A DNA stretch of 49,339 bases from a virus. The notes below the pieces were generated by a model. It ran no database searches and was not told where the DNA came from. It saw only the letters and a program-made list of their open reading frames with translations. Both the position numbers and the translations under genes were made by a program. Location of the stretch: the IMG/VR virus record IMGVR_UViG_3300021425_000055, positions 1 to 49,339 of that record; one strand, written 5' to 3'. The first letter of the stretch is position 1; each line of letters opens with the position of its first letter. Below, in pieces: positions 18,324 to 35,228 of this stretch.

Positions 18324-20195
18324 TTATATCTCACAGTTGTTGCCAGTACATGCAAGCGTTTGTGATCCTTCTGTCATGTCACTCTCTTCAACAATATCCC
18401 AAGACATTTCAGTAGGAAAATCAGCAGCCATTGCTTCATATTCCTCTTCACTGATAGGCTCATAAGGTGCTTGTTGATATGTGTGCTCGCTATATGGCAA
18501 GAAACTAATACCACTAATCTTGTCAAACTTATTATACAACCACTGACCTACTTCAAGAAACTCTTCATCGCGATAGTAACATGTCATCGAGGGCTTATGT
18601 TCACACCAAAAGTCTTGGTAGATCTCCCAAAGCTCAAGCTGCTCCATAGCACCCATCTCAGAGGCCGTCACAGCCCCGTCAGGAGATTTTATAGGGAAGC
18701 TGAATACCTTGGTACTGGGTGACATTACATCGTCTTCTACGGGGATTCCTGAGGCTTCGAGGACTTGGCAGAGTGGGTCTCGAGAGTCTGCTCGAACTCG
18801 TCTAATGTATTGAGATGAGTATCTAGGGTGGATTCCACTCGCGCTATCAACAAGCTGACTAACAGTGCCGCTAGGCTTAATGGCGGTAATAGCAGTAGAA
18901 ACTTCAATACCAAGAAGACCAGCCCATCGTCTGTTGGTTGCGACGGCTTCTTCTCGTAGTTCTGTGAGCCACGTCTTAAGTACACCTTTGTCTCTCCTTC
19001 CCGACATTGTCGGATGATCCATAATGCCCGTCAAGCTAACACCCAACAAAGCCTCTTCTTCTGTGTTGTTCTGCCACACCTTCCTCAAGTATCTGAAATT
19101 GGTAAGGGTAGCTTGTAAAGTTCCAAGGATAGTCGCAGTACGAACTTTCCGTTTGAGGTCTGAGAGACTATCGGACGCCCTGACAACAACCTCTGATAGA
19201 TTACAGAATTGGTAGGGTCGAAGGATAATTTCGGAGCATGGATTAGTTCCAAAGTCATAGGTAGCATCTCTTCGCTCGTTTTTTGCAGCTTGCTTTTGAC
19301 TTGCAACCCTAGAGAACATTCCTCGTTCCCCAGACCTTGACTCGTATAAACTTTTCCACTCATTTAAAAATGCCTCAAAATCTGGTTTCTCTGTATAACA
19401 CGCACTGTTGTTGGCTAGACCACGTTGAGGATTGTCTTGCCACCATTGGCCTGACTTGCATCTTCGGAGTCTATCGTCAGTGAGGTTAGACAGACTGATG
19501 AGAGCACTTCTTCTAACCCCACCGACGACGACGATTTGTGCAATTTTACAGCAGATATCGTGGCATTCAATTGAGGAGAGCTTACGTCCAGAAGCTTCCC
19601 GAAAGACCTCAGTGGTGAACTTAAACAAATCGACAAGAGGCTCAGGACCAGACGCTCTACCCCCGAAGGTTCTAAGCGCGGAGCCTGCACCTCGTACTCT
19701 AGATATGTCCCACTTTGGAAGCTGACCCGAATAGAGCAAGCTAATAAGTTCTCTGTAGGCTTTAGCCCAGCCAATTTTAGAGTCGGCGACGTGTATAACG
19801 GTATCGGTGTCATGGAATTCCTCTGCTACTTCAGGTAGTTTAGTTACGTATTGACGCTCAACGCTGAAGCCTACGCCTGTACCGCACATCAGGACGTACA
19901 TCATCTCGTCAAACGCTTTGGGGTGATCGATAGGCATGTAACTACAGTTGAAGCCAGCAACATTATCACGATCCAGCGCTTCACCAGCAGTCATCAAAGC
20001 CCTCATACTAGGCATAACATCCAAGCTGTGGATGTCTGCGAACATTCCGTTAGCATCTTCTAAAGTAAGCTTACCCTTCTCAACCCAGAAGTTCAAGTAT
20101 CTGTCGATTGTTTCTTCCCAAGTCTCACGCCGTTGTTCTTCTGGTAGGTAACGTGCGTACCGTGACTTGTGAATGTATTGTTGATATAGATCCAT
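18324..20195 (-). CDS. nrdJ: adenosylcobalamin-dependent (class II) ribonucleotide reductase
   Basis: The 623-residue enzyme reduces ribonucleotides to deoxyribonucleotides using a thiyl radical generated from vitamin B12 coenzyme. Visible residues are C84 in FNCSY and C331 in CNLSE (reducing pair), the FGTNPCSEI motif with N318, thiyl C320 and E322, and a C-terminal redox pair C616/C621 in ACTGNNC. The glycine-rich segment MCGTGVGF (103-110) matches the monomeric Lactobacillus-type fold. Being B12-dependent and single-chain, it needs no oxygen and no second subunit. A strong AGGAG precedes the ATG, which overlaps the stop of the tiny basic gene upstream. It feeds phage DNA synthesis beside the polymerase genes. 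Confidence 0.95.
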   Translation of the reverse strand: MDLYQQYIHKSRYARYLPEEQRRETWEETIDRYLNFWVEKGKLTLEDANGMFADIHSLDVMPSMRALMTAGEALDRDNVAGFNCSYMPIDHPKAFDEMMYVLMCGTGVGFSVERQYVTKLPEVAEEFHDTDTVIHVADSKIGWAKAYRELISLLYSGQLPKWDISRVRGAGSALRTFGGRASGPEPLVDLFKFTTEVFREASGRKLSSIECHDICCKIAQIVVVGGVRRSALISLSNLTDDRLRRCKSGQWWQDNPQRGLANNSACYTEKPDFEAFLNEWKSLYESRSGERGMFSRVASQKQAAKNERRDATYDFGTNPCSEIILRPYQFCNLSEVVVRASDSLSDLKRKVRTATILGTLQATLTNFRYLRKVWQNNTEEEALLGVSLTGIMDHPTMSGRRDKGVLKTWLTELREEAVATNRRWAGLLGIEVSTAITAIKPSGTVSQLVDSASGIHPRYSSQYIRRVRADSRDPLCQVLEASGIPVEDDVMSPSTKVFSFPIKSPDGAVTASEMGAMEQLELWEIYQDFWCEHKPSMTCYYRDEEFLEVGQWLYNKFDKISGISFLPYSEHTYQQAPYEPISEEEYEAMAADFPTEMSWDIVEESDMTEGSQTLACTGNNCEI

Positions 20196-20299
20196 TATTT
20201 CTCCTTAGCTCTCCGACGTTTAGGTGTCGTGTCTTGTCGTGTCTTATGTTTTTTCTTTCGATTGAATTTGTTTGTTCTTTCTTGCTTTCTATCAATCAT
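20195..20299 (-). CDS. 34-residue highly basic microprotein
   Basis: This short reading frame starts at ATG 20299, overlapping the endonuclease stop, and ends in TAA overlapping the nrdJ start (TAATG). About 16 of its 34 residues are Lys or Arg (for example RKKKHKTRQ, PKRRRAKEK). Perfect coupling on both sides supports translation. It might bind nucleic acid or simply carry ribosomes to nrdJ. No family recognised. Confidence 0.6.
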   Translation of the reverse strand: MIDRKQERTNKFNRKKKHKTRQDTTPKRRRAKEK

Positions 20300-20750
20300 C
20301 TTCAGACGACCACCCCTCCGGTAAACTATCTTCGCTATACCAACGAAACCCTTTGGAACTAGCCCACTCTCCGTGAGACCGTTTAGTGCCATCAACACGT
20401 CTCTTTGCCTGAGGCATTGGAGCACTAGGATCAGAAAACAAGAACACAAGCTCGTAGTTTTCAGGCAAGCATTTACTTATCCAAATATATTTACTATATT
20501 CAGGTGCATCCCAAAACCTTCCTTTGGCTTCGAGAAGTATTGTCTTACCATCAATCTCTTTAACAAAGTCGGCATGATACGTATGCTCAACGATATAGTC
20601 GATCTTTGTTGTATGGATATCCCATTCGGATAGAGGGCCTGAGTGCAGCTTGTACTCCCAATGAGAATCATAGCCCGGCGCTAAGTCTTTCTCAACCGGA
20701 CGCGGGACTCTTTTTTTTCTAAAGCCTCTTCTTATTTTAGGTGCTGTCAA
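20292..20750 (-). CDS. T7-type endonuclease I (Holliday junction resolvase)
   Basis: The 152-residue nuclease resolves branched DNA during replication, recombination and packaging. Catalytic residues expected from T7 gp3 are present: E32 in SHWEYKL, D61 in YHADFVKE, and E74/K76 in ILLEAKGRFW. The C-terminal SHGEWASSKGFRW...LPEGW parallels the T7 SYGEF...IPAEW segment. No ATG is available upstream of the conserved domain. The start is TTG at 20750, overlapping the stop of the 56-residue gene (TTGA), with AGAGAGG upstream. Confidence 0.9.
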   Translation of the reverse strand: MTAPKIRRGFRKKRVPRPVEKDLAPGYDSHWEYKLHSGPLSEWDIHTTKIDYIVEHTYHADFVKEIDGKTILLEAKGRFWDAPEYSKYIWISKCLPENYELVFLFSDPSAPMPQAKRRVDGTKRSHGEWASSKGFRWYSEDSLPEGWSSEDD

Positions 20751-20917
20751 TGTAGTACTGCCTCTCTTTTTTCTATCTCAAGACACACAGCTTCATGAAG
20801 ATTGTAAAGGGCTTCGTCGTCTACAGTATCTATTTCATTACCACTTGAAATATGTATTGCAAAGCCCATTATAATTGCTTCAAGTGGAACTAAGTCTCCA
20901 AAGTCTTCATCTTCCAT
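20747..20917 (-). CDS. small acidic hypothetical protein (56 aa)
   Basis: A complete frame from ATG 20917 to TGA 20747-20749 encodes a Glu/Asp-rich 56-residue protein (MEDEDFGDLVPLEAIIMGF..., ending EIEKREAVLH). Its start overlaps the previous gene by 28 bases and its stop overlaps the endonuclease TTG. It fills what would otherwise be a gap between genes in a tightly packed operon. No function can be assigned. Confidence 0.65.
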   Translation of the reverse strand: MEDEDFGDLVPLEAIIMGFAIHISSGNEIDTVDDEALYNLHEAVCLEIEKREAVLH

Positions 20918-21198
20918 GAATTCATCACTGATTGTATGTCACTTAGTGTAAAGGACTCAATAGGTCTTTCAGGATACATAACCACTAACTGCTTTAGTTT
21001 CTTCCTAACCCATCGAGGTGAAAACGTACTTAGAAAAAACTTGTTGTTGGCGTAGACATGAGTTTGATCGGGCAAGAGTTCTTTGTAATTATTAATAGTG
21101 ATTTGTTTAGCTTCTTCTTCCGATACTAATGTTCTAAGCCAAGCAACAAGTATAATTCCTACCTGTTTGTTTATTCTTTTTATCTTCCTTTGGTTCAT
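20890..21198 (-). CDS. small hypothetical basic protein
   Basis: The 102-residue product is Lys/Arg-rich (MNQRKIKRINKQVG...) with FSPRWVRKKLKQLVV and no membrane segment. It overlaps the exonuclease stop by 4 bases and the next small gene by 28 bases. It sits among DNA-processing genes, so a nucleic-acid role is plausible, but no domain is recognised. Confidence 0.75.
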   Translation of the reverse strand: MNQRKIKRINKQVGIILVAWLRTLVSEEEAKQITINNYKELLPDQTHVYANNKFFLSTFSPRWVRKKLKQLVVMYPERPIESFTLSDIQSVMNSWKMKTLET

Positions 21199-22052
21199 AA
21201 GATTTCTTCTACGCGAGGTTCTGACACAACCTTCGTAAAGTACACAGGGCCACTAGCGTAAGCGAAAGACCGAAGACCTTGGCCGTCGTTAGCGTCTGCG
21301 TAGCATTCAAATTTATAGGGACAGTATGAGCATCCTGAGGGTAATTTCATGTTGCCTTTTTTACCGTCAGAAATAGTATTATAACATCGATCTGGAGGTG
21401 TGTCAAGACTTAAAGCCTTACGAACGTCTTTAATTTTCTGTTCGATGTTAGGCTTCTCTAAATCTTCAGGCTGAAACAAGCACAACTCGCCGCTCTCTTT
21501 GTTGATAACAAGGAAGCCGCCGTTGTCTGTGTTCTCTGCAGCCTCGTAGCCAGCAAGCTGTGGTAGATAGCCGAAGGGATCGTTCTCAGCTAAAGAGCCA
21601 TCGACAAATTTCTTAAATGAATAACGAGAAGCAGACTTGACATCGACTACTTGTCCATTAATCTTACAGTCCATGTGGCCTTTGATGCCTGATACACTAA
21701 TTTCTTTTTGCTCTGATGAAACCTCGTGACCAGATAGTCGGACTAACATCAAAACAATCTCTTCGAGAATGTGTCCATAAAGAAACTTGATCTGCGTTGG
21801 GGCGCTTATAGCTGAAGGAGAACTAGAGTTCTTGTTGTCATACCACAGCTGGCGAAGAGGCCGTCCCACGTTTGACATCCTTAACGTGAATTCTTTTGAA
21901 GACTCTCTAGGCTTAGACCAAGTTAGGATGCTTTCTTTAATACGCTCCATTGTTTGATCTAGTTCTTCTTCATTTATCTCAAGGGCCTTACCTTCAGAGA
22001 GGCCTTCAAGCTTTGCATAGATATCTTGAACTACTGTATTTAAATTTTCCAT
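21195..22052 (-). CDS. Cas4/RecB-type PD-(D/E)XK exonuclease with C-terminal cysteine cluster
   Basis: Counting from an alternative start at 22076 (293 residues), the signature runs: the phage-exonuclease motif NVGRPLRQLWYD, H102/E105 in YGHILEE, D136 in GHMDCKI, D145-x-K147 in VVDVKSAS, and Q173 in PQLAGY. Four cysteines (C231, C249, C252, C258; SGCSYCPYKFEC) could hold an Fe-S cluster, as in Cas4 and AddB. The inferred role is resection or degradation of DNA ends in recombination or host DNA breakdown. I prefer ATG 22052 (MENLNTVV), which reduces the overlap with the upstream gene to 13 bases; 22076 is possible. Confidence 0.85.
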   Translation of the reverse strand: MENLNTVVQDIYAKLEGLSEGKALEINEEELDQTMERIKESILTWSKPRESSKEFTLRMSNVGRPLRQLWYDNKNSSSPSAISAPTQIKFLYGHILEEIVLMLVRLSGHEVSSEQKEISVSGIKGHMDCKINGQVVDVKSASRYSFKKFVDGSLAENDPFGYLPQLAGYEAAENTDNGGFLVINKESGELCLFQPEDLEKPNIEQKIKDVRKALSLDTPPDRCYNTISDGKKGNMKLPSGCSYCPYKFECYADANDGQGLRSFAYASGPVYFTKVVSEPRVEEIL

Positions 22053-22339
22053 TCTGTATGATCCACGAACCGACATCTTCGGTTTCTTGCGTTGAATTCA
22101 ACTACTTGGACTCTAAGTTTCTTCTGCTCTTCGGTTCGCTTATGACCCCAAGAGTTATTAGAGTTCTTAGATTTCACATCTATGAAGATAGGCGTTCCGT
22201 TCTTCACAGCAATAATATCTATCGCACCAGTGCAGCCAGTGTTCCGAAAGACTTCATAGCCTTCGTCCCACAACCAAGTAGTAACGTAATGTTCTGCCAT
22301 GTCTCCAAGGCGTGAAGGGTCTGTTATTTCTTTTGGCAC
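22040..22339 (-). CDS. small PD-(D/E)XK nuclease / resolvase-like protein
   Basis: The 99-residue product has a compact restriction-endonuclease-like core: E16 in GDMAEHYV, D41 in GAIDIIAV, and D54-x-K56 in FIDVKSK. This is the layout of archaeal-type Holliday junction resolvases and YraN-like proteins. It starts with GTG, whose first G is the last base of the upstream TAG. It lies in a run of four nuclease genes beside the polymerase. Substrate unknown. Confidence 0.75.
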   Translation of the reverse strand: MPKEITDPSRLGDMAEHYVTTWLWDEGYEVFRNTGCTGAIDIIAVKNGTPIFIDVKSKNSNNSWGHKRTEEQKKLRVQVVEFNARNRRCRFVDHTEWKI

Positions 22340-22845
22340 TATAGGCTCCTTAATTTTCCAAGAGGATCTAGTTTTGATATAGCTAGATTGTAACAGTCTA
22401 CGGAAACTTTCCAGTTATTGGAAGGATCTATCTCTCCTTTCTTCCAAAACTTTGCCTCTTTAAAGTATTCGCTTTGTGGTTTGTAACCAAGAATCCAGCC
22501 TTCGTTAAGTGAGGGCAGCACTCTTACAAAAACATAAAGGTCACAGTCTTGATGGAGACTTGTCTTTGCTATTGAACATTCATAGCTAGGCTTAGGAGGA
22601 TAGTTAGTTCGTTTAGTTTTTACATCTACCCTCAAACCATTGTAAATCATGTCATAGTTCTTGGTATGTGATAGATCGACGCCTAAAAACTTAGCTACCA
22701 TTAGTTCGCCACTAAACCCAGCAACATTTCCTTGCCCTTTAGTAATAGAATTTTTTATGTGTCCCAAATTCTCAGCAAGCTCTTTGGCCTTTTCGAACTC
22801 TATATGATTAAGCTTAGTGCGTGTCAGCCCAGTTATTCCCGACAT
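22339..22845 (-). CDS. PD-(D/E)XK nuclease-like protein
   Basis: The 168-residue product carries a nuclease-like arrangement: E47 in GFSGELMVAKFLG, D65 in NYDMIYNG, and D74-x-K76 in RVDVKTKRT, followed by YECSIAKTS and a hydrophobic strand DLYVFVRVL. This order (helix with Glu, then D, then DxK) fits the PD-(D/E)XK fold used by resolvases and restriction enzymes. It overlaps the 3' end of the DNA polymerase gene by 32 bases. The exact activity is unknown. Confidence 0.7.
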   Translation of the reverse strand: MSGITGLTRTKLNHIEFEKAKELAENLGHIKNSITKGQGNVAGFSGELMVAKFLGVDLSHTKNYDMIYNGLRVDVKTKRTNYPPKPSYECSIAKTSLHQDCDLYVFVRVLPSLNEGWILGYKPQSEYFKEAKFWKKGEIDPSNNWKVSVDCYNLAISKLDPLGKLRSL

Positions 22846-24574
22846 TGTATTCTCCTGTTAACCCACAACGTAAATTAAACTCTAGTCCTGCTTGTTCAAT
22901 AGCCTCAACACCTAACTCACCTACACGTTGAGAGACATCTTCGAGTGCTTCGATCTGCCATTCATCATGCACATTAGCCACAAAGTGTGCATCCATACCA
23001 GACATCTTGTCATTTAACAACACAAGCGCTTTCTTCATAACTATTGCGCCTGCTCCTTGAAGTAGTGTGTTAAGTGCAGCGTGTTCAGATCTTACGAATA
23101 GCTTGCGTCCGTCTAGCCCCTTGAGGTAGCCGCGCTTTGCCGCTCTTGCAACTCTGTCTTTAAGAACTTTAAATGCAGGGAGATTATCGAAGAAAGATTG
23201 TCTAAGTCGTCCACCATCGTCTGCGTTTCCTCCGACCACCGTTCCAAGCTTTGCATCTCCTGCTCCGTACAAGAGTGCATAGATGAAAGTTTTTGCCTGA
23301 TTTCTTGATTCAAGTCCCGCAGCCATTTGATTTGCTGTGTGTATATCTCCGTTGAGAAGCTCATAAGTAAATCCCTCATCGTTCATATAGTGTGCCAGCA
23401 TCCTTAGCTCCAAGCCGCTGGCGTCTATGCCCACAAGTTTATACCCATTCATCACCGTCCAACACTGGCGGCACTCTTTACCATAAGGACTTCCAGTACT
23501 AGGAACTTGCGCCATGTTTGGATGACTGTGTGTCATACGTCCAGTCACTGCGCCGTTAGTATTAACGAACCCACGGACTCGCCCATCATCTTCTACCACC
23601 TTAAACCATGAAGTTATCTGAGCAATACGCTTTTGAAGCATAAGATATTTAGCAATAACTGCAGCTTCAGGGATGTCATCTATCTTTGACAGGACTTTTT
23701 CATCAACAATTGGCTGTCCCGTAGGCGTAAATTTTGTAGGCTTCCAGCCAAACTCCACGAGATATTCTCCAATTTGTTTCCTAGAACCAAGGTTAAAAGG
23801 TTCAGAATCACAACGAACAAGATGCTCGTTCGGATTCGCGCTCGCCTTTTCGTACTCCTCATCTGACAACCTGACCTTCTTGGTTTCGCCTTTAAGTTGT
23901 GCCATCTTAGAAACCTTACCAGCCTTTGTCATGAGAGGAACAAGGGTCATCTGTGTTTCTCGTGGCCTGAAAGTTTTGTGAACAAGCTTCTCAGCCTGTG
24001 AAATGTTTTCGTTTAGTTCAGCTAGTAAACTCATGGCGTGTTGTTCATCTAACAAGAACCCACGATCTCGCTGTGCTTGCATGACTCGATACACAGAATG
24101 CTCTAAAGCAACAGCGTCTTTACTAAATCCCGCTGCTTCGACACGCGCAAGATGCTGGTAGACCTTGTGGTTTAGTGACACATCTTGTCTGCAATATGCC
24201 ATCATCTCCGGCGAAAAGCTTTCAAAATCTTCGAACTCGATCTTCTTGTGTCGTAGCCTGTAGCCCCATCCTTCGAGGCCGTGACCACCTTCTCGTGTTG
24301 GGTTGAACAGTCGAGACAACACAAGAGTATCTACAATGAACCGACTGCCATCATCAAGATCAGAGCCAAGAAGTTTCTTGACTACAGGTATGTCGTATCC
24401 AAGGATGTTGTGACCGATAAGTTCTTTAGACTCTTCGAGCAGCTTGACTCCTTCAGCTAGTTGGTCTGGTCCAAACTCATAGAACTTCTTAGTTACTGTG
24501 TCCATTGCAACAATACAAAAGACCTCAGTAGGATCTAGTCCATTGGCTTCAATATCAAAAACATAGCTTGTCAT
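22814..24574 (-). CDS. family A DNA polymerase with 3'-5' exonuclease (T7-like)
   Basis: The 586-residue replicative polymerase carries exonuclease motifs D7/E9 (VFDIEANGL), IGHNILGYDIP and YCRQDVSLNHKVY, and polymerase motifs A (GIDASGLELRMLAH), B (RNQAKTFIYALLYGAG) and C (VHDEW). Motif B has tyrosine at the position equivalent to E. coli Phe762, as in T7, a feature associated with highly processive polymerases of lytic phages. It overlaps the primase-helicase by 4 bases and the following nuclease by 32 bases. It is shorter than T7 gp5 (704 residues) and I see no obvious thioredoxin-binding insertion. Confidence 0.97.
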   Translation of the reverse strand: MTSYVFDIEANGLDPTEVFCIVAMDTVTKKFYEFGPDQLAEGVKLLEESKELIGHNILGYDIPVVKKLLGSDLDDGSRFIVDTLVLSRLFNPTREGGHGLEGWGYRLRHKKIEFEDFESFSPEMMAYCRQDVSLNHKVYQHLARVEAAGFSKDAVALEHSVYRVMQAQRDRGFLLDEQHAMSLLAELNENISQAEKLVHKTFRPRETQMTLVPLMTKAGKVSKMAQLKGETKKVRLSDEEYEKASANPNEHLVRCDSEPFNLGSRKQIGEYLVEFGWKPTKFTPTGQPIVDEKVLSKIDDIPEAAVIAKYLMLQKRIAQITSWFKVVEDDGRVRGFVNTNGAVTGRMTHSHPNMAQVPSTGSPYGKECRQCWTVMNGYKLVGIDASGLELRMLAHYMNDEGFTYELLNGDIHTANQMAAGLESRNQAKTFIYALLYGAGDAKLGTVVGGNADDGGRLRQSFFDNLPAFKVLKDRVARAAKRGYLKGLDGRKLFVRSEHAALNTLLQGAGAIVMKKALVLLNDKMSGMDAHFVANVHDEWQIEALEDVSQRVGELGVEAIEQAGLEFNLRCGLTGEYNVGNNWADTH

Positions 24575-26199
24575 ATTTCATCTCCGTCTAAGCCTTGAAG
24601 ATCATCAACAGATATTTCAGAAAGGCGTCCGCTGTCTAAGTCATAGTGAAGGTGTGTGGCTAGGCCAACATCTCCCGTGTATCTAGACTTGAGTACACGT
24701 ACCTTGGTTGTTGAAGCAACCACAGGATCGTCTGCCTGCTGATTACGCTCTAAGCTTATCACGCAATCACTCAATTGTGCTATCGACTGAGAGCCACGTA
24801 AATGATTCAGTGCAGTTTCAATGCCGTTCTCGTGGCCTCGATCACCCTGTGTGCGTCGAAGGTGAGAGACTAGAATCATTCCACAGCCTGTCTCTTCAAC
24901 AAGAGTTCGAAGCCTGTGCATGATCATGTCAATAGCCTTACGCTCATCAGGGTCATCAGAAAGTAACACGAGCATATGAAGGTGATCAAGGACTATCCAC
25001 TTACAGTCGCAGCCTATGATCATATAACGAAGCTTACTGAAAACACTTTCAAGGTCGTTCATTCCAAGGTGTCCGTACACCCACACACGATCCTTATTCT
25101 CTCCGCCAAACATCTGGTGGTGTATCTGACGAAGATCGTCTTGATCAAAAAGATTACGAACGCTGTCGAGGTGTAGTCTGGCGTCGGCTTCGATGGATAG
25201 AATACCGTCGATAGTTCTCTGCCAGTTTTCCTCAAGGGCCATGACGCCCACATTATCTCTAGTCTTTTTAATCAGCCAGTGTTCTAGCTCACGAGTGACA
25301 CTTGATTTTCCAAGCCCTGTGCCACCCGTCAATGTGACTAGTTCACCCGCACGAAGACCTTCTAATTTTTCGTTCAGCCCTGCCCAAGGGAAAGGCACTG
25401 AGTCTTTTCGTGTGCGAGTGAGATAGTTTTCTACGTTCTCAGATACGTTCAAGACTCCAGAGGGTGTGTATAACTTGGAGTTCCACCAGTACTGGACGTA
25501 GGCTTTGTGTTGCGAACCGCGTAACATGTCATTGGCGTCTTTGTAATCGACGGGTAGTGACATGATCTTTGCTTTGCCGGGACGCAATAGTTTGGCTACC
25601 TTTCGAGCAGCCTCTTCCCCCACCTTGTCATTGTCAAAGTTAATGATGATGTTATCGAAGGACTCTAAAAACTCTAGGTTCTCCTTCACATCACGATCAG
25701 CAGACTGTGCGCCATTGCGAATAGACACAACAGGCCACTGTGAACCCATGAGTTCATAGGCTGACATGGCATCTACTTCACCTTCAACAATGGTTACGTA
25801 CTTACCACCACTTTGAAATAGCTGCTGGCCGAAGAGACCAACATTCCTAGATTCCCCTTGCCATGTAAAGTTCTTATCAGGCTTGCGAGTCTTTGATCCT
25901 ACTCGCTCGCTGCCAGAATAGTATGGGTAAACATGCTCGACTATCTGACCTTTTGAATTCTTTGTGGATTTAACTCCGTATTTCTTAGCCGTTGCCAGAC
26001 TGATTCCTCTGTCTGTTAGGGCGTAATATTCACCGTCGTCCATAGACTGCCTCGATGATATTGGAGTGACGTTATCAAGCTTATTGCTTGGGATGAAAAC
26101 ACCGCAGCTAAAACATTTGATGGAGCCATCGTCGTTCATCGCTGCGGGATCAGATCCCCCACACTCAGGGCAGGGGATGTGAGTTTTTTTAAATGCCAT
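24571..26199 (-). CDS. bifunctional DNA primase-helicase (T7 gp4-like)
   Basis: The 542-residue product has an N-terminal zinc site (C10, C13, C29, C32: CPECGG...CFSCG), TOPRIM motifs (VEGEVDAMS, INFDNDKVG) and a RecA-type helicase. The helicase has Walker A GGTGLGKSS, Walker B IVLDHLHML, SHLRRTQGDRGHENG, and the arginine-finger region LRGSQSIAQLSD...LERNQQADD. The C-terminus is acidic (LDGDEI) and matches that of the ssDNA-binding protein. It would unwind DNA and prime lagging-strand synthesis for the overlapping polymerase gene. GAGGA precedes the ATG. Confidence 0.97.
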   Translation of the reverse strand: MAFKKTHIPCPECGGSDPAAMNDDGSIKCFSCGVFIPSNKLDNVTPISSRQSMDDGEYYALTDRGISLATAKKYGVKSTKNSKGQIVEHVYPYYSGSERVGSKTRKPDKNFTWQGESRNVGLFGQQLFQSGGKYVTIVEGEVDAMSAYELMGSQWPVVSIRNGAQSADRDVKENLEFLESFDNIIINFDNDKVGEEAARKVAKLLRPGKAKIMSLPVDYKDANDMLRGSQHKAYVQYWWNSKLYTPSGVLNVSENVENYLTRTRKDSVPFPWAGLNEKLEGLRAGELVTLTGGTGLGKSSVTRELEHWLIKKTRDNVGVMALEENWQRTIDGILSIEADARLHLDSVRNLFDQDDLRQIHHQMFGGENKDRVWVYGHLGMNDLESVFSKLRYMIIGCDCKWIVLDHLHMLVLLSDDPDERKAIDMIMHRLRTLVEETGCGMILVSHLRRTQGDRGHENGIETALNHLRGSQSIAQLSDCVISLERNQQADDPVVASTTKVRVLKSRYTGDVGLATHLHYDLDSGRLSEISVDDLQGLDGDEI

Positions 26200-31920: not shown

Positions 31921-32350
31921 GGTGTTGCCCTCTTTTGGTTTATTGCGTGTCGTTTGTAGATACTCACTAGCATATGAATACCCACAAAAAACACGCCACA
32001 AACTCACAAGCTTTCACAGTCTTTGGTGATCTTTTGAGATTGGATTGTCTGCCCGATCCCTATCACCATTTGATACTCGCTTGTATCTGTGGCGTTAGCG
32101 CTTCCAGTACATCGTTTTTCGTTTCAATTAGTGCCTACCCTCGCACCATACTTCTCTAATGATCCACCCGCAGATGAGACAAGATACCTTGCCAAGTATG
32201 GTTCCGCTTAGATAGCCTCGCACGTCATTTAGACTGCAAAACATCTGGCTAACAATTACCCGTCTGTCAGTGACGTTGGCTGTTTAAAGGTACTCGGTAG
32301 TCCTTTGAAGGGTATCCCTCGCTGGCCTTTCCCTGCCGGTTGATCTCTAA

Positions 32351-32377
32351 GCTATAGATCCCTTTTGAGCCTGTCAA
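32351..32377 (-). promoter_or_regulatory. candidate leftward sigma-70 promoter
   Basis: On the minus strand a perfect -35 box TTGACA (32377-32372) is followed by TATAGC (32356-32351) with a 15-base spacer; a less good -10 at 17 bases also exists. Position and direction suit transcription of the early block starting at 31920. The spacer is short, so this is tentative. Confidence 0.4.
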
Positions 32378-32422
32378 CAACTTTTTCAAAATATTTTTCT
32401 GAAATGGGGTAAAAATGTGGTA

Positions 32423-32671
32423 AGTCTTTGAAATCCTTCGGAGAAAAAATTTAAAAAATAATTCTTAGAAAGTCTTTGAAGTCCTCTAAAACCTGTCTAC
32501 CAGTCTTTAAAAATTTTTGAAGGTCTCAAAAATCTTTCGAGTTGATGACGTGTTTTTCAGTTGAGGGAGTTTGTGAAATATTCACAGGCTATGAAGTCTT
32601 CACAGGGGCGTGGAAATGTGCTAGGGACTTTGAAGTGCGGGGAGATTGTGAAGGGCTGTCAAGTCTTTGAA
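32423..32671 (+). repeat. interspersed AGTCTTTGAA motif array
   Basis: The decamer AGTCTTTGAA occurs exactly at 32423-32432, 32471-32480 and 32662-32671. Near-matches are at 32502 (AGTCTTTAAA), 32531 (AATCTTTCGA), 32595 (AGTCTTCACA) and around 32626 (GACTTTGAAG). All are in the same orientation. Such spaced same-direction copies can be binding sites for an initiator or regulator. Confidence 0.6.
32572..32586. promoter_or_regulatory. palindrome TGTGAA-ATA-TTCACA
   Basis: Perfect 6-base arms flank a 3-base centre. The half-site TTCACAGG recurs at about 32599, and TTGTGAAGG occurs nearby at 32646-32654. The symmetry suits a dimeric DNA-binding protein. The site lies among the AGTCTTTGAA copies. 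Confidence 0.45.
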
Positions 32672-32826
32672 GGGGCGGGGCAGGTGGCCATACCCCCACC
32701 CGTATATATATACTCATGCTCGAACATTTTCAGAAGGTTTTGGAGTGTCTACCAGATAGGCGCACAGATCTTCCAAGACCTAGGATTGTCGCCCCGATCT
32801 TCTAAGAGTCGCGGGGGATATATACA

Positions 32827-32845
32827 TGTACCTCTGCGGGGTACA
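32827..32845. promoter_or_regulatory. inverted repeat TGTACC-7-GGTACA
   Basis: Perfect 6-base arms flank a 7-base G-rich centre, about 60 bases upstream of the terS promoter -35 box. It could be an operator or part of a short RNA hairpin. Confidence 0.4.
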
Positions 32846-32872
32846 ATAGTATTATACACCTGTATTTCAGTT

Positions 32873-32909
32873 TTGTCAAGACTAAAAAACTTAAAAAAAG
32901 ACTTGACAA
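32873..32909. promoter_or_regulatory. inverted repeat overlapping the late promoter -35 (candidate operator)
   Basis: The arm TTGTCAAG at 32873-32880 is the exact complement of CTTGACAA at 32902-32909, and extended arms match at 10 of 11 positions. The right arm contains the -35 hexamer TTGACA. A protein bound here would block RNA polymerase, so this is a good candidate for early-to-late control. Confidence 0.55.
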
Positions 32910-32931
32910 GCCTCAAATATAGGTATATACT
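32903..32931 (+). promoter_or_regulatory. consensus sigma-70 promoter of the late (terS) operon
   Basis: TTGACA at 32903-32908, a 17-base spacer and TATACT at 32926-32931 form a near-perfect housekeeping promoter. The expected start of transcription, about 7 bases after the -10, falls at the A of the terS ATG (32938). This implies a leaderless mRNA recognised by host RNA polymerase. Confidence 0.75.
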
Positions 32932-32937
32932 ATAATC

Positions 32938-33342
32938 ATGGAAACTAAAAAAGATTTAACATTAAAACAACAAAGTTTTCTTGACAACTTAATAGAGTGT
33001 GGAGGCAACCCTAAAAGAGCAGCAGAGATTGCAGGTTATGCTCCCGGTAGTTATACTACAGTTGTCAAGGCTTTGAAATCTGAGATTCTTGATTTGACTG
33101 AAGGAATCTTAGCTATGAATGCTCCTAAAGCTGCTGTAAAGCTTGTAGAGGTTCTAGAAAGTGATGAGCCTATCCCACAAGCTAATATTCGATTACAAGC
33201 AGCCCAGACGCTTCTAGACCGTGTTGGTGTAGCAAAGAAAGAAAGACTAGACGTAAAGATAGAGAATCCAAGTGGTTTGTTTATTCTTCCAGCTAAAAAA
33301 ACAACAATAATAGAAGATGTAGAATATGAAGAGACGGACTAG
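32938..33342 (+). CDS. terS: terminase small subunit
   Basis: The 134-residue product has a helix-turn-helix-like N-terminus (QQSFLDNLIECGGNPKRAAEIAGY, about 10-36), a helical oligomerisation region (APKAAVKLVEVL, QANIRLQAAQTLLDRVGV) and a C-terminal segment GLFILPAKK. This is typical of phage small terminases that select the packaging site, and terL follows. No ribosome site lies upstream: the promoter -10 ends 6 bases before the ATG. It overlaps the next gene by 17 bases. Confidence 0.85.
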   Translation: METKKDLTLKQQSFLDNLIECGGNPKRAAEIAGYAPGSYTTVVKALKSEILDLTEGILAMNAPKAAVKLVEVLESDEPIPQANIRLQAAQTLLDRVGVAKKERLDVKIENPSGLFILPAKKTTIIEDVEYEETD

Positions 33343-33559
33343 CAGTACCATTCCGTTTGGTTATAAATTGATTGATGACGATCCTGAACACATCGAAGAG
33401 ATCCCCAGCCAACTTGAAGCTTTAAACAAGATACTACCGATGATTAAATCAAGATCTTTATCTTTACGTGAAGGTGCATTATGGTTATCCCACAAAACAG
33501 GAAGACCTATAACGCATCAAGGACTACAAAAAATACTAACTAAATATGACACAGAATGA
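33326..33559 (+). CDS. small HTH-like protein between terS and terL
   Basis: The 77-residue product has the pattern IPFGYKLIDDDPEHIEEIP, then LEALNKILPMIKS, SLREGALWLSHKTGRPITHQ and GLQKIL. This resembles, from memory, the helical DNA-binding domain found in serine recombinases and in small genes next to terminases of marine phages. No catalytic domain is present. It may help the terminase bind DNA. It overlaps both neighbours (17 and 14 bases). Confidence 0.75.
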   Translation: MKRRTSSTIPFGYKLIDDDPEHIEEIPSQLEALNKILPMIKSRSLSLREGALWLSHKTGRPITHQGLQKILTKYDTE

Positions 33560-35228
33560 TTGGGATGTTAATCCAGACAACTATGTCAAAGATGACGATG
33601 GTAATTTTGTCCTAAAGAAAGATGGAACACCTCGTAAGAAAGCGGGGCGTTCTAAAGGGTCAACAGGTAGAGGCTATAACTACCACTCTAAGACCCAAGC
33701 GAAGCTAAATGCTTCTAAGAAAATTAGACAAAAGAAAAAAAAGATAGCGCAGGCCCGTTCCAGTATAGTAAGACATCAAGAGTCTTTAAAGAAAACTGAA
33801 AAAGCCCTTGACATACTAGAAGATAAATCTAAAAATCGTATTGTCGAAGAAACATTTGTAGAAGAAGCAGCCCCTTCGCTTCAGCCTGAACTGAAAGAAA
33901 ACATAATCTTTCAGCCTAATGAAGGCCCTCAAATGGATTTCTTGGCTGCAGGTGAGACAGATGTACTATACGGTGGAGCGGCTGGTGGAGGTAAGAGCTA
34001 TGCGATGTTGGTTGACCCACTTCGTTTTGCTCACAGGGCAGCACATAGAGCATTAATCCTGCGGCGTTCTATGCCAGAGTTACGAGAGCTTATCGACAAA
34101 TCTCGTGAACTCTACCCTAAGGCCTTCCCCGGATGCAAGTACCGTGAGGTAGAAAAGCTTTGGACTTTTCCAAGCGGTGCTAAAGTAGAGTTTGGATTTT
34201 TGGAACGTGATGCAGATGTGTATCGCTATCAGGGCCAAGCTTACAGTTGGATAGGTTTTGATGAAATAACACACCTACCAACAGAGTTTTCGTGGAACTA
34301 CTTGGCTTCACGATTACGTACAACTGACTCAGAGATAACGCCCTATATGCGTTGTACGGCTAACCCCGGCGGTGTAGGTGCAGGATGGGTCAAAAAGAGG
34401 TATATAAGCCCCTCAATGCCTAATGATTCATTTGTAGGCGACGATGGGATTACTAGAAAGTTTATACCAGCTCGATTAAATGACAACCCGTATTTGGCTG
34501 AGGATGGCCGATACGAGCAGATGTTAAAGAGCTTGCCGCCGACCCAACGCAAACAGTTGCTTGAAGGTAATTGGGAAGTTGCAGAAGGCGCAGCATTTAC
34601 AGAGTTTGATCGAGATATACATATTATTGAGCCTTTTGACATTCCTCTTCATTGGGAGCGTGTCAAAGGGCTTGACTATGGTTACGCATCAGAATCAGCG
34701 TGTGTTTGGGCTACGATAGATCCTAACGATAATACATTGATTATTTATAGAGAATTGTATCGTAAAAATCTACTGGCTACCGAACTTGCTGAAATGTTGA
34801 CGAACATGGAACTAAATGATCCAATGTCTGTCAGAGGCGTACTAGATACAGCCTGTTGGTCTAGGACAGGAACAACTGGACCCACAGTAGCAGAAACATT
34901 AATTCAAGGCGGACATAAGCTTAGGCCTGCAGATAAGAATCGTATTGCAGGTAAAATCCAGATACATGAACACTTAAAAGTTCAACCATCTGGCAGACCA
35001 CGAATGCAGATATTTAATACGTGTCCTAATCTGATTCGTGAGCTTCAAAGCATTCCACTTGATAAGACTAATCCTGAGGATGTTAATACACACGCTTCGG
35101 ATCACGCCTACGACGCACTACGATACTTAATTATGTCTAGGCCAAGAATAAATGATCCACTAAGTCAAATAAGAGACTTACAGCGTGAACAACATTTTCA
35201 GCCTTTTGATTCAACATTTGGTTACTAA
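33546..35228 (+). CDS. terL: terminase large subunit (packaging ATPase-nuclease)
   Basis: The 560-residue motor packages DNA into the prohead and cuts it. It has Walker A GGAAGGGKS (143-151), Walker B IGFDE (236-240), coupling motif TANPGG (271-276), nuclease acidic residues D377 (KGLDYGYASE) and D434 (GVLDTACW), and C-terminal HASDHAYDALRY. The first 121 residues form an unusual extension: basic and AT-hook-like (PRKKAGRSKGSTGRG), then a Lys-rich coiled coil, ahead of the usual adenine-binding motif FQPNEGPQ. Confidence 0.95.
   Translation: MTQNDWDVNPDNYVKDDDGNFVLKKDGTPRKKAGRSKGSTGRGYNYHSKTQAKLNASKKIRQKKKKIAQARSSIVRHQESLKKTEKALDILEDKSKNRIVEETFVEEAAPSLQPELKENIIFQPNEGPQMDFLAAGETDVLYGGAAGGGKSYAMLVDPLRFAHRAAHRALILRRSMPELRELIDKSRELYPKAFPGCKYREVEKLWTFPSGAKVEFGFLERDADVYRYQGQAYSWIGFDEITHLPTEFSWNYLASRLRTTDSEITPYMRCTANPGGVGAGWVKKRYISPSMPNDSFVGDDGITRKFIPARLNDNPYLAEDGRYEQMLKSLPPTQRKQLLEGNWEVAEGAAFTEFDRDIHIIEPFDIPLHWERVKGLDYGYASESACVWATIDPNDNTLIIYRELYRKNLLATELAEMLTNMELNDPMSVRGVLDTACWSRTGTTGPTVAETLIQGGHKLRPADKNRIAGKIQIHEHLKVQPSGRPRMQIFNTCPNLIRELQSIPLDKTNPEDVNTHASDHAYDALRYLIMSRPRINDPLSQIRDLQREQHFQPFDSTFGY

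Follow-up and report, generated by a model that had tools for sequence, protein, structure and literature searches.

A conserved element and 10-bp phased DNA before the terminase genes of marine phages: a probable pac-type packaging-initiation site

Introduction

The pac site of phages SPP1 and SF6 (pacL-pacC-pacR; TerS, G1P) is situated at terS, the gene for the small terminase subunit, and has flanking recognition segments around the region that is cut; its TerS is a ring of helix-turn-helix (HTH) domains, for which selection of bent DNA has been proposed (PMC4737164, PMC4856287). As described, the HTHs of this ring are weak, non-specific and about one helical turn apart, and the pac DNA they would select is intrinsically bent (PMC4737164). 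The cos site of lambda (cosN-I2-cosB, with R sites and an IHF bend) is likewise a terminase site of several parts, at which DNA bending is described (PMC4856287). HK97 TerS threads DNA through its channel instead (PMC11331095), and lateral interdigitation has been proposed for PaP3 TerS (PMC7672466). Wrapping versus threading in DNA recognition by TerS was the subject of major debate in 2024 (PMC11331095), and a 2022 review found the evidence behind both models scarce and inconclusive (PMC9611059). For Sinorhizobium phage phiM6, PhageTerm predicted a pac cleavage, which was set as position 1 of the genome (PMC6256558).

The region that we describe precedes terS in 49,339 nucleotides of viral DNA, the whole of which we call the window (IMG/VR record IMGVR_UViG_3300021425_000055, positions 1 to 49,339). 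Compared by description with SPP1/SF6 pac, it has the same place at terS, a TerS of the HTH-ring kind, segments flanking a presumed cut region and a proposed selection of bent DNA; it differs in having a phased array of about 280 bp and a G/C core, containing TATATATAC, that is conserved in many contigs. With the phiM6 end it shares its place before terS and terL and a core that is homologous through intermediates, whereas phiM6 lacks the 10-bp phasing and a direct profile match fails. It resembles lambda cos in being composed of several parts, but shows no sign of a staggered cut at a fixed place, and its repeats are phased at 10 bp rather than being a few spaced R sites.

We consider it probable (about 0.7) that the region is where pac-type packaging is initiated and that its DNA has a shape suited to wrapping around a TerS ring: its identity as a packaging site is fairly well supported, and from the phasing we infer the wrapping. 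In the literature searched, with narrow terms and few subscription journals, we found no description of the core or of the phasing in these phages. A sequence that drifts while its 10-bp phase lasts, in dozens of uncultured marine phages, makes a direct, testable case for the study of TerS recognition.

Results

The terminase genes of a marine phage

The window belongs to a marine phage, kin of Pelagibacter phages HTVC103P, HTVC104P and HTVC115P, to whose terL its own is 61-65% identical, and more distantly of HMO-2011 and phiM6. Its terminase genes are these:

32938-33342, plus strand: terS, small terminase subunit (PHROG terminase small subunit, E 5e-6; Pfam Terminase_2 below cut-off only)
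33546-35228, plus strand: terL, large terminase subunit (PHROG 979, E 3e-65; Pfam Terminase_6N, E 1.4e-11)

A profile of the TerS family matched the solved TerS proteins of NV1 (E 3.8e-6), PaP3 (6.6e-5) and, weakly, SF6 (0.01-0.05), indicating an N-terminal HTH of the SF6/PaP3 type at E values from 3.8e-6 to 0.045. Foldseek, run with a TerS model that is weak (pLDDT 62) and serves in a support role only, placed PaP3 and NV1 first and SPP1-like TerS next, none of them below E 0.001. Judged by profile and model, TerS resembles the HTH rings of NV1/PaP3 and SF6, its closest solved relatives being the PaP3 group.

Elsewhere in the window, the minus strand of 18324-26199 carries a replication block with ribonucleotide reductase, a Cas4-domain exonuclease, DNA polymerase and primase/helicase. 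Searches for RNA families (gathering threshold) and tRNAs found none in the 49-kb window; in the Aeromonas phage MQM1, eight annotated tRNA genes are clustered between terS and terL (locus L211, 656-1883).

A conserved core element precedes terS

One element in the noncoding DNA ahead of terS is shared by most relatives:

32678-32755, plus strand: conserved core, consisting of GGGCAGGTGGCCA, a G/C-rich spacer, TATATATATAC, ACATTTT and TGTCTACCAG (profile match, E 7.8e-20)

It lies 260 bp ahead of terS and adjoins the array described below, beginning 6 bp past the third decamer. We first recognised it in 66 rows, with L039, L052 and L065 as off-site matches by eye; across loci its consensus is GGGCAGG[A/T]GGCCA, a G/C-rich spacer, TATATATAC, ACATTTT and TGTNNACNAG. 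The spacer (32691-32702 in the window) swaps strand among relatives, appearing as C runs or as G runs between the same flanks.

A packaging site is expected beside terS and once per genome, and this is how the core is distributed. Scanning IMG/VR for the pattern yielded 44 stretches in one scan and 78 in another, and in 133 of 135 pattern matches—a number that includes the window itself and some contigs counted twice—terS follows on the same strand, 230-541 bp downstream; in the other two the sequence ends 48 and 101 bp beyond the element, before terS could be reached. The core is found at one place per record in all 23 longer records searched, some of which may be incomplete genomes. A profile of 62 nonredundant elements gave one match each in 187 of 208 sequences, the window's stretch and some contigs again being counted twice. 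Among 80 terL loci, 67 have the core, mostly 820-1000 bp upstream of terL, and the remaining 13 have less than 900 bp of sequence upstream of the gene.

This profile is usable for finding packaging sites in the clade of the window phage. It had no match in the stretches around terL of HMO-2011, CRP-1, CRP-3 and HTVC033P; HTVC103P, HTVC104P and HTVC115P have a diverged core by eye, weak by profile (E 0.051, 0.97 and 0.048 respectively).

Purine and pyrimidine runs alternate every 10 bp upstream of the core

An earlier note on this DNA had remarked on a repeated decamer within 32299-32700, an outlying box related to it, a TGTGAA/TTCACA palindrome and very A+T-rich DNA. All are present, and most fall within a longer array:

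32299-32310, plus strand: outlying related box AGTCCTTTGAAG
32370-32530, no strand: A+T-rich segment of the array, 71% A+T
32397-32677 (left boundary approximate), plus strand: 10-bp phased array of Y4R4-type boxes, among them CTTTGAAG, CTTCGGAG, CTCTAAAA and TTTTGAAG (sliding scan, box density)
32423-32432, plus strand: decamer AGTCTTTGAA, copy 1 (exact match)
32471-32480, plus strand: decamer AGTCTTTGAA, copy 2 (exact match)
32502-32511, plus strand: AGTCTTTAAA, near copy of the decamer with one mismatch (mismatch search)
32572-32586, no strand: inverted repeat TGTGAA-ATA-TTCACA, within the phased array
32662-32671, plus strand: decamer AGTCTTTGAA, copy 3 (exact match)

The A+T content of 32370-32530 is matched by 0.5% of 161-bp windows. 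The decamer occurs exactly three times, always on the plus strand, against a mean of 0.001 copies per dinucleotide shuffle of 32299-32700; because 15 of 1000 such shuffles produce some 10-mer in triplicate, the count is unusual, not extreme, and alone a weak finding. Matches with at most one mismatch number 19 in the whole window where 7.1 are expected, a total reached in none of 100 shuffles. Conservation among close relatives, which the earlier note had proposed as a check, proved partial: in rows made up of the window and seven such relatives, one of which (L112) starts past sites 1 and 2, the exact decamer is kept in 6/7, 3/7 and 4/8 rows at sites 1, 2 and 3. Only transitions are seen at sites 1 and 2; site 3 also has T-to-G in two rows.

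The decamers are part of an array of about 280 bp where runs of pyrimidines and of purines follow each other with a 10-bp period. To quantify this we scored purines and pyrimidines as +1 and -1 and took as statistic the correlation at 10/20/30 minus that at 5/15/25, over the 250 bp preceding the core. The window gave 1.11 (z = 6.1; reached in 0/1000 dinucleotide shuffles). For 67 nonredundant loci, of which the window is one, the value was 0.87 (z = 39.6; reached in 0/200 shuffles), with autocorrelation peaks near 10, 19, 29 and 40 bp; taken singly, 61 of the 67 exceed z = 2 and six do not. In a sliding 250-bp scan of the 49-kb window (mean 0.067, sd 0.192), the maximum of 1.28 lies at 32461-32710 and the next peak reaches 0.80. 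The density of Y4R4-type boxes is also highest here, 10 per 300 bp at 32366, the best value outside the region being 6.

Phasing varies with distance from the core: it averages 0.95 at -200 to -50, is 0.07-0.08 at -600 to -350, and climbs again to 0.18-0.25 at -900 to -550. Coding DNA of terL, used as a control, has a weak yet significant 10-bp signal of its own (0.107, z 13.7). The rhythm is one of purines and pyrimidines: coding the array as G/C versus A/T revealed no 10-bp rhythm. Purine peaks keep a single 10-bp register on either side of the core (about -35, -25, -15 and -5; +55, +65, +75, +95 and +105). Helical phasing over about 100 bp or more is thus present, as sequence phasing, in the window and in most of its clade.

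What persists among loci is this phase (61/67), while the letters drift. In counts over 74 loci the octamers CTTTAAAG, CTTTGAAG and CTTTAGAG come out on top; CTTTGAAG is the core of the decamer, and on this sequence evidence the decamers are the window's form of such boxes. Transitions are not favoured in the array: in 57 locus pairs, after 16 comparisons of the array and 19 of the upstream flank had been dropped for identity below 70%, ts/tv was 1.22 in the array and 1.19 in flanking DNA, and the test therefore lends no support to base-level selection on the purine/pyrimidine pattern. Phasing at 10 bp was not found at the mapped pac end of phiM6 or at HTVC115P's own element, and in HTVC103P a peak of 0.78, second-highest in the stretch scanned, lies solely upstream of the element.

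Intermediates connect the core with the pac end of phiM6

In the phiM6 record a version of the core begins, at GGCAGG, 55 bp after position 1 and ahead of terS and terL. Direct profile comparison fails both ways, the window-group profile missing the phiM6 element and the phiM6-group profile missing that of the window. The connection appears through intermediates: the window-group profile matches a phiM6 relative (L218) with E 0.0019, the only one of 80 phiM6-like terL loci matched at E < 0.01, and a phiM6-group profile built without this relative has the element as its top match in 17 of 186 window-group loci. The best phiM6-group match on the window group (L094) has E 4e-6 and 19.7 bits, the best elsewhere 9.3 bits. 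In four other phiM6-like loci, close or related to phiM6, the element was located through GGCAGG. By this chain of sequence matches the window core is homologous to the core of phiM6, and the phiM6 end predicts where the first cut would fall:

32623, no strand: neighbourhood of the predicted first packaging cut (from phiM6, 55 bp before GGCAGG)

The view of the earlier note that no standard feature explains the pattern gives way here: the place before terS, the single copy per record and the link to phiM6 pac all point to a packaging site. As for the phiM6 pac end itself, TTCAAGT has nine copies in 51.3 kb, seven of them around that end, from -276 to +494, and these are not phased at 10 bp.

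Ends of contigs give a mixed picture. Of 69 whole contigs, 14 end at most 500 bp upstream of the core, and the next three 500-bp bins hold 4, 5 and 3 ends; near the core the ends fall at scattered bases and do not converge on one. The excess upstream could reflect assembly breaks too, and the scarcity of ends downstream probably reflects a selection favouring contigs with terL. A set of long contigs that seemed to start at the core was rejected, most such loci being chunks inside longer records: in the record holding L160, for example, the core is at 32900. At least 2 kb flank the core on each side in 21 of 23 longer records, which run through it, with contig ends scattered. The one contig truly starting near the core, 164 bp upstream, is G004 (52.8 kb).

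A terminus of another type would be a direct terminal repeat or a cos-type end, with two cuts marked by two copies of the motif that closes the core:

32494-32503, plus strand: upstream copy of flanking motif TGTCTACCAG (family TGTMWACYAG; exact repeat of 32746-32755)
32746-32755, plus strand: downstream copy of flanking motif TGTCTACCAG, at the end of the core

These copies, 252 bp apart, form an exact 10-bp pair flanking the core, and contig L112 begins inside the upstream motif. At up to one mismatch, 56 of 68 loci have the downstream motif at +66 to +68 from GGGCAGG, and 38 of 68 have the upstream one, compared with 12 of 268 control windows. For MQM1, a more distant relative, the PhageTerm prediction was moreover one of 327-bp terminal repeats, not pac ends (PMC10410586); the claim rests on that report, since a comparison of the MQM1 record ends found short shared words only and no shared 327-bp repeat. 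Such an end is nevertheless unlikely in the window phage: among relatives the position of the upstream copy ranges from -87 to -201, contig ends other than that of L112 do not cluster on the motif, the two ends of G004 have no overlap or 15-mer in common in the stretches compared, and phiM6 was called pac (PMC6256558).

A proposed packaging-initiation site on wrapped DNA

In the mechanism that we propose for a pac-type site, the unique core marks the place where packaging is initiated, and the phased boxes, decamers included, would supply DNA easily bent in one direction, as many as about 28 helical turns of it. TerS, the likely ligand, would form a ring with its HTH domains outward and wrap part of the array, making about one contact per helical turn; it may also hold TerL at the core. 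TerL would cut nearby, probably some tens of bp upstream of GGGCAGG and inside the array, and packaging would run toward terS and terL and end by the headful.

Because HK97 TerS threads DNA and interdigitation has been proposed for the PaP3 group, the array fits wrapping without proving it. We put forward as possible, and tentatively, the further idea that the packaging site of the clade is a nucleosome-like wrapping segment, in which the 10-bp rhythm rather than the letters is kept because TerS reads the shape of the DNA. If so, these phages would support, with genomic evidence from across the family, the wrapping model of DNA recognition by TerS.

A host protein (HU, IHF or DNA gyrase) might instead wrap or bend the phased DNA, leaving TerS to contact the core only. 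Purine/pyrimidine phasing without a strict consensus does resemble generic bendability, and lambda cos is described as using IHF-assisted bending (PMC4856287). The phasing stays in register through the core, however, which suggests one wrapped complex, and we think a host protein improbable in this role.

Origin and switch readings of the region

The earlier note had suggested an iteron-type origin or a multi-site regulator. A region with multiple protein-binding sites is supported by the sequence; the iteron part is not. In an iteron-type origin the direct repeats measure about 17-22 bp and adjoin a rep gene, and DnaA boxes are usually present. Here Y4R4-type boxes recur every ~10 bp in place of ~20-bp iterons, the genes downstream are terS and terL, and DnaA-like boxes are absent near the array, both matches in the window lying elsewhere. 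Cumulative GC skew, which the note had proposed as a check, turns at ~18 kb and 31-32 kb; these points coincide with changes of gene direction and therefore say nothing separate about an origin. The occurrence of repeats and an A+T-rich stretch close to such a change would suit a replication origin with iteron-like binding sites, but given the size of the units, the DnaA-like boxes lying elsewhere, a skew that tracks gene direction and a core that precedes terS in all but two of the pattern matches, we regard it as very unlikely; no evidence for a replication origin was found.

The idea of a switch, also raised in the note, was partly right in that two predicted sigma-70-type promoters stand back to back between the core and terS, at 32851-32931:

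32851-32879, minus strand: leftward sigma-70-type promoter, TTGACA-17-TATAAT, 12/12 (promoter scan)
32903-32931, plus strand: rightward sigma-70-type promoter before terS, TTGACA-17-TATACT, 11/12 (promoter scan)

The scan returned five promoter-like sites against a shuffle mean of 2.7. Counterparts of the leftward promoter occur in 45 of 67 loci (shuffle mean 0.1), those of the rightward one in 57 of 67 (shuffle mean 0.5). A transcription switch, in which a repressor or TerS on the boxes controls divergent early and terminase promoters, would draw on this arrangement, and also on the description of the SPP1 TerS-pac complex as lowering transcription of the motor operon (PMC4737164). Yet the array stops ~170 bp from the promoters, without overlap, and operators seldom occur as one unique core per genome; as the primary function of the region a switch seems quite unlikely. 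It could rather be a second role of the packaging site than an alternative to it. A transcript from the leftward predicted promoter would cross the core and the array, and TerS bound at the packaging site might influence that transcription.

Two minor observations concern the promoters. The 12/12 leftward promoter would have a leader of ~840 bases (32007-32851 in the window) to the first listed minus-strand ORF. In HTVC115P (L201, ~555-600) and HTVC103P (L205, ~760-800), a motif like TGTTAACTAG/TGTCAACTAG overlaps, by eye, promoter-like sequence before terS, a position that would suit autoregulation by TerS.
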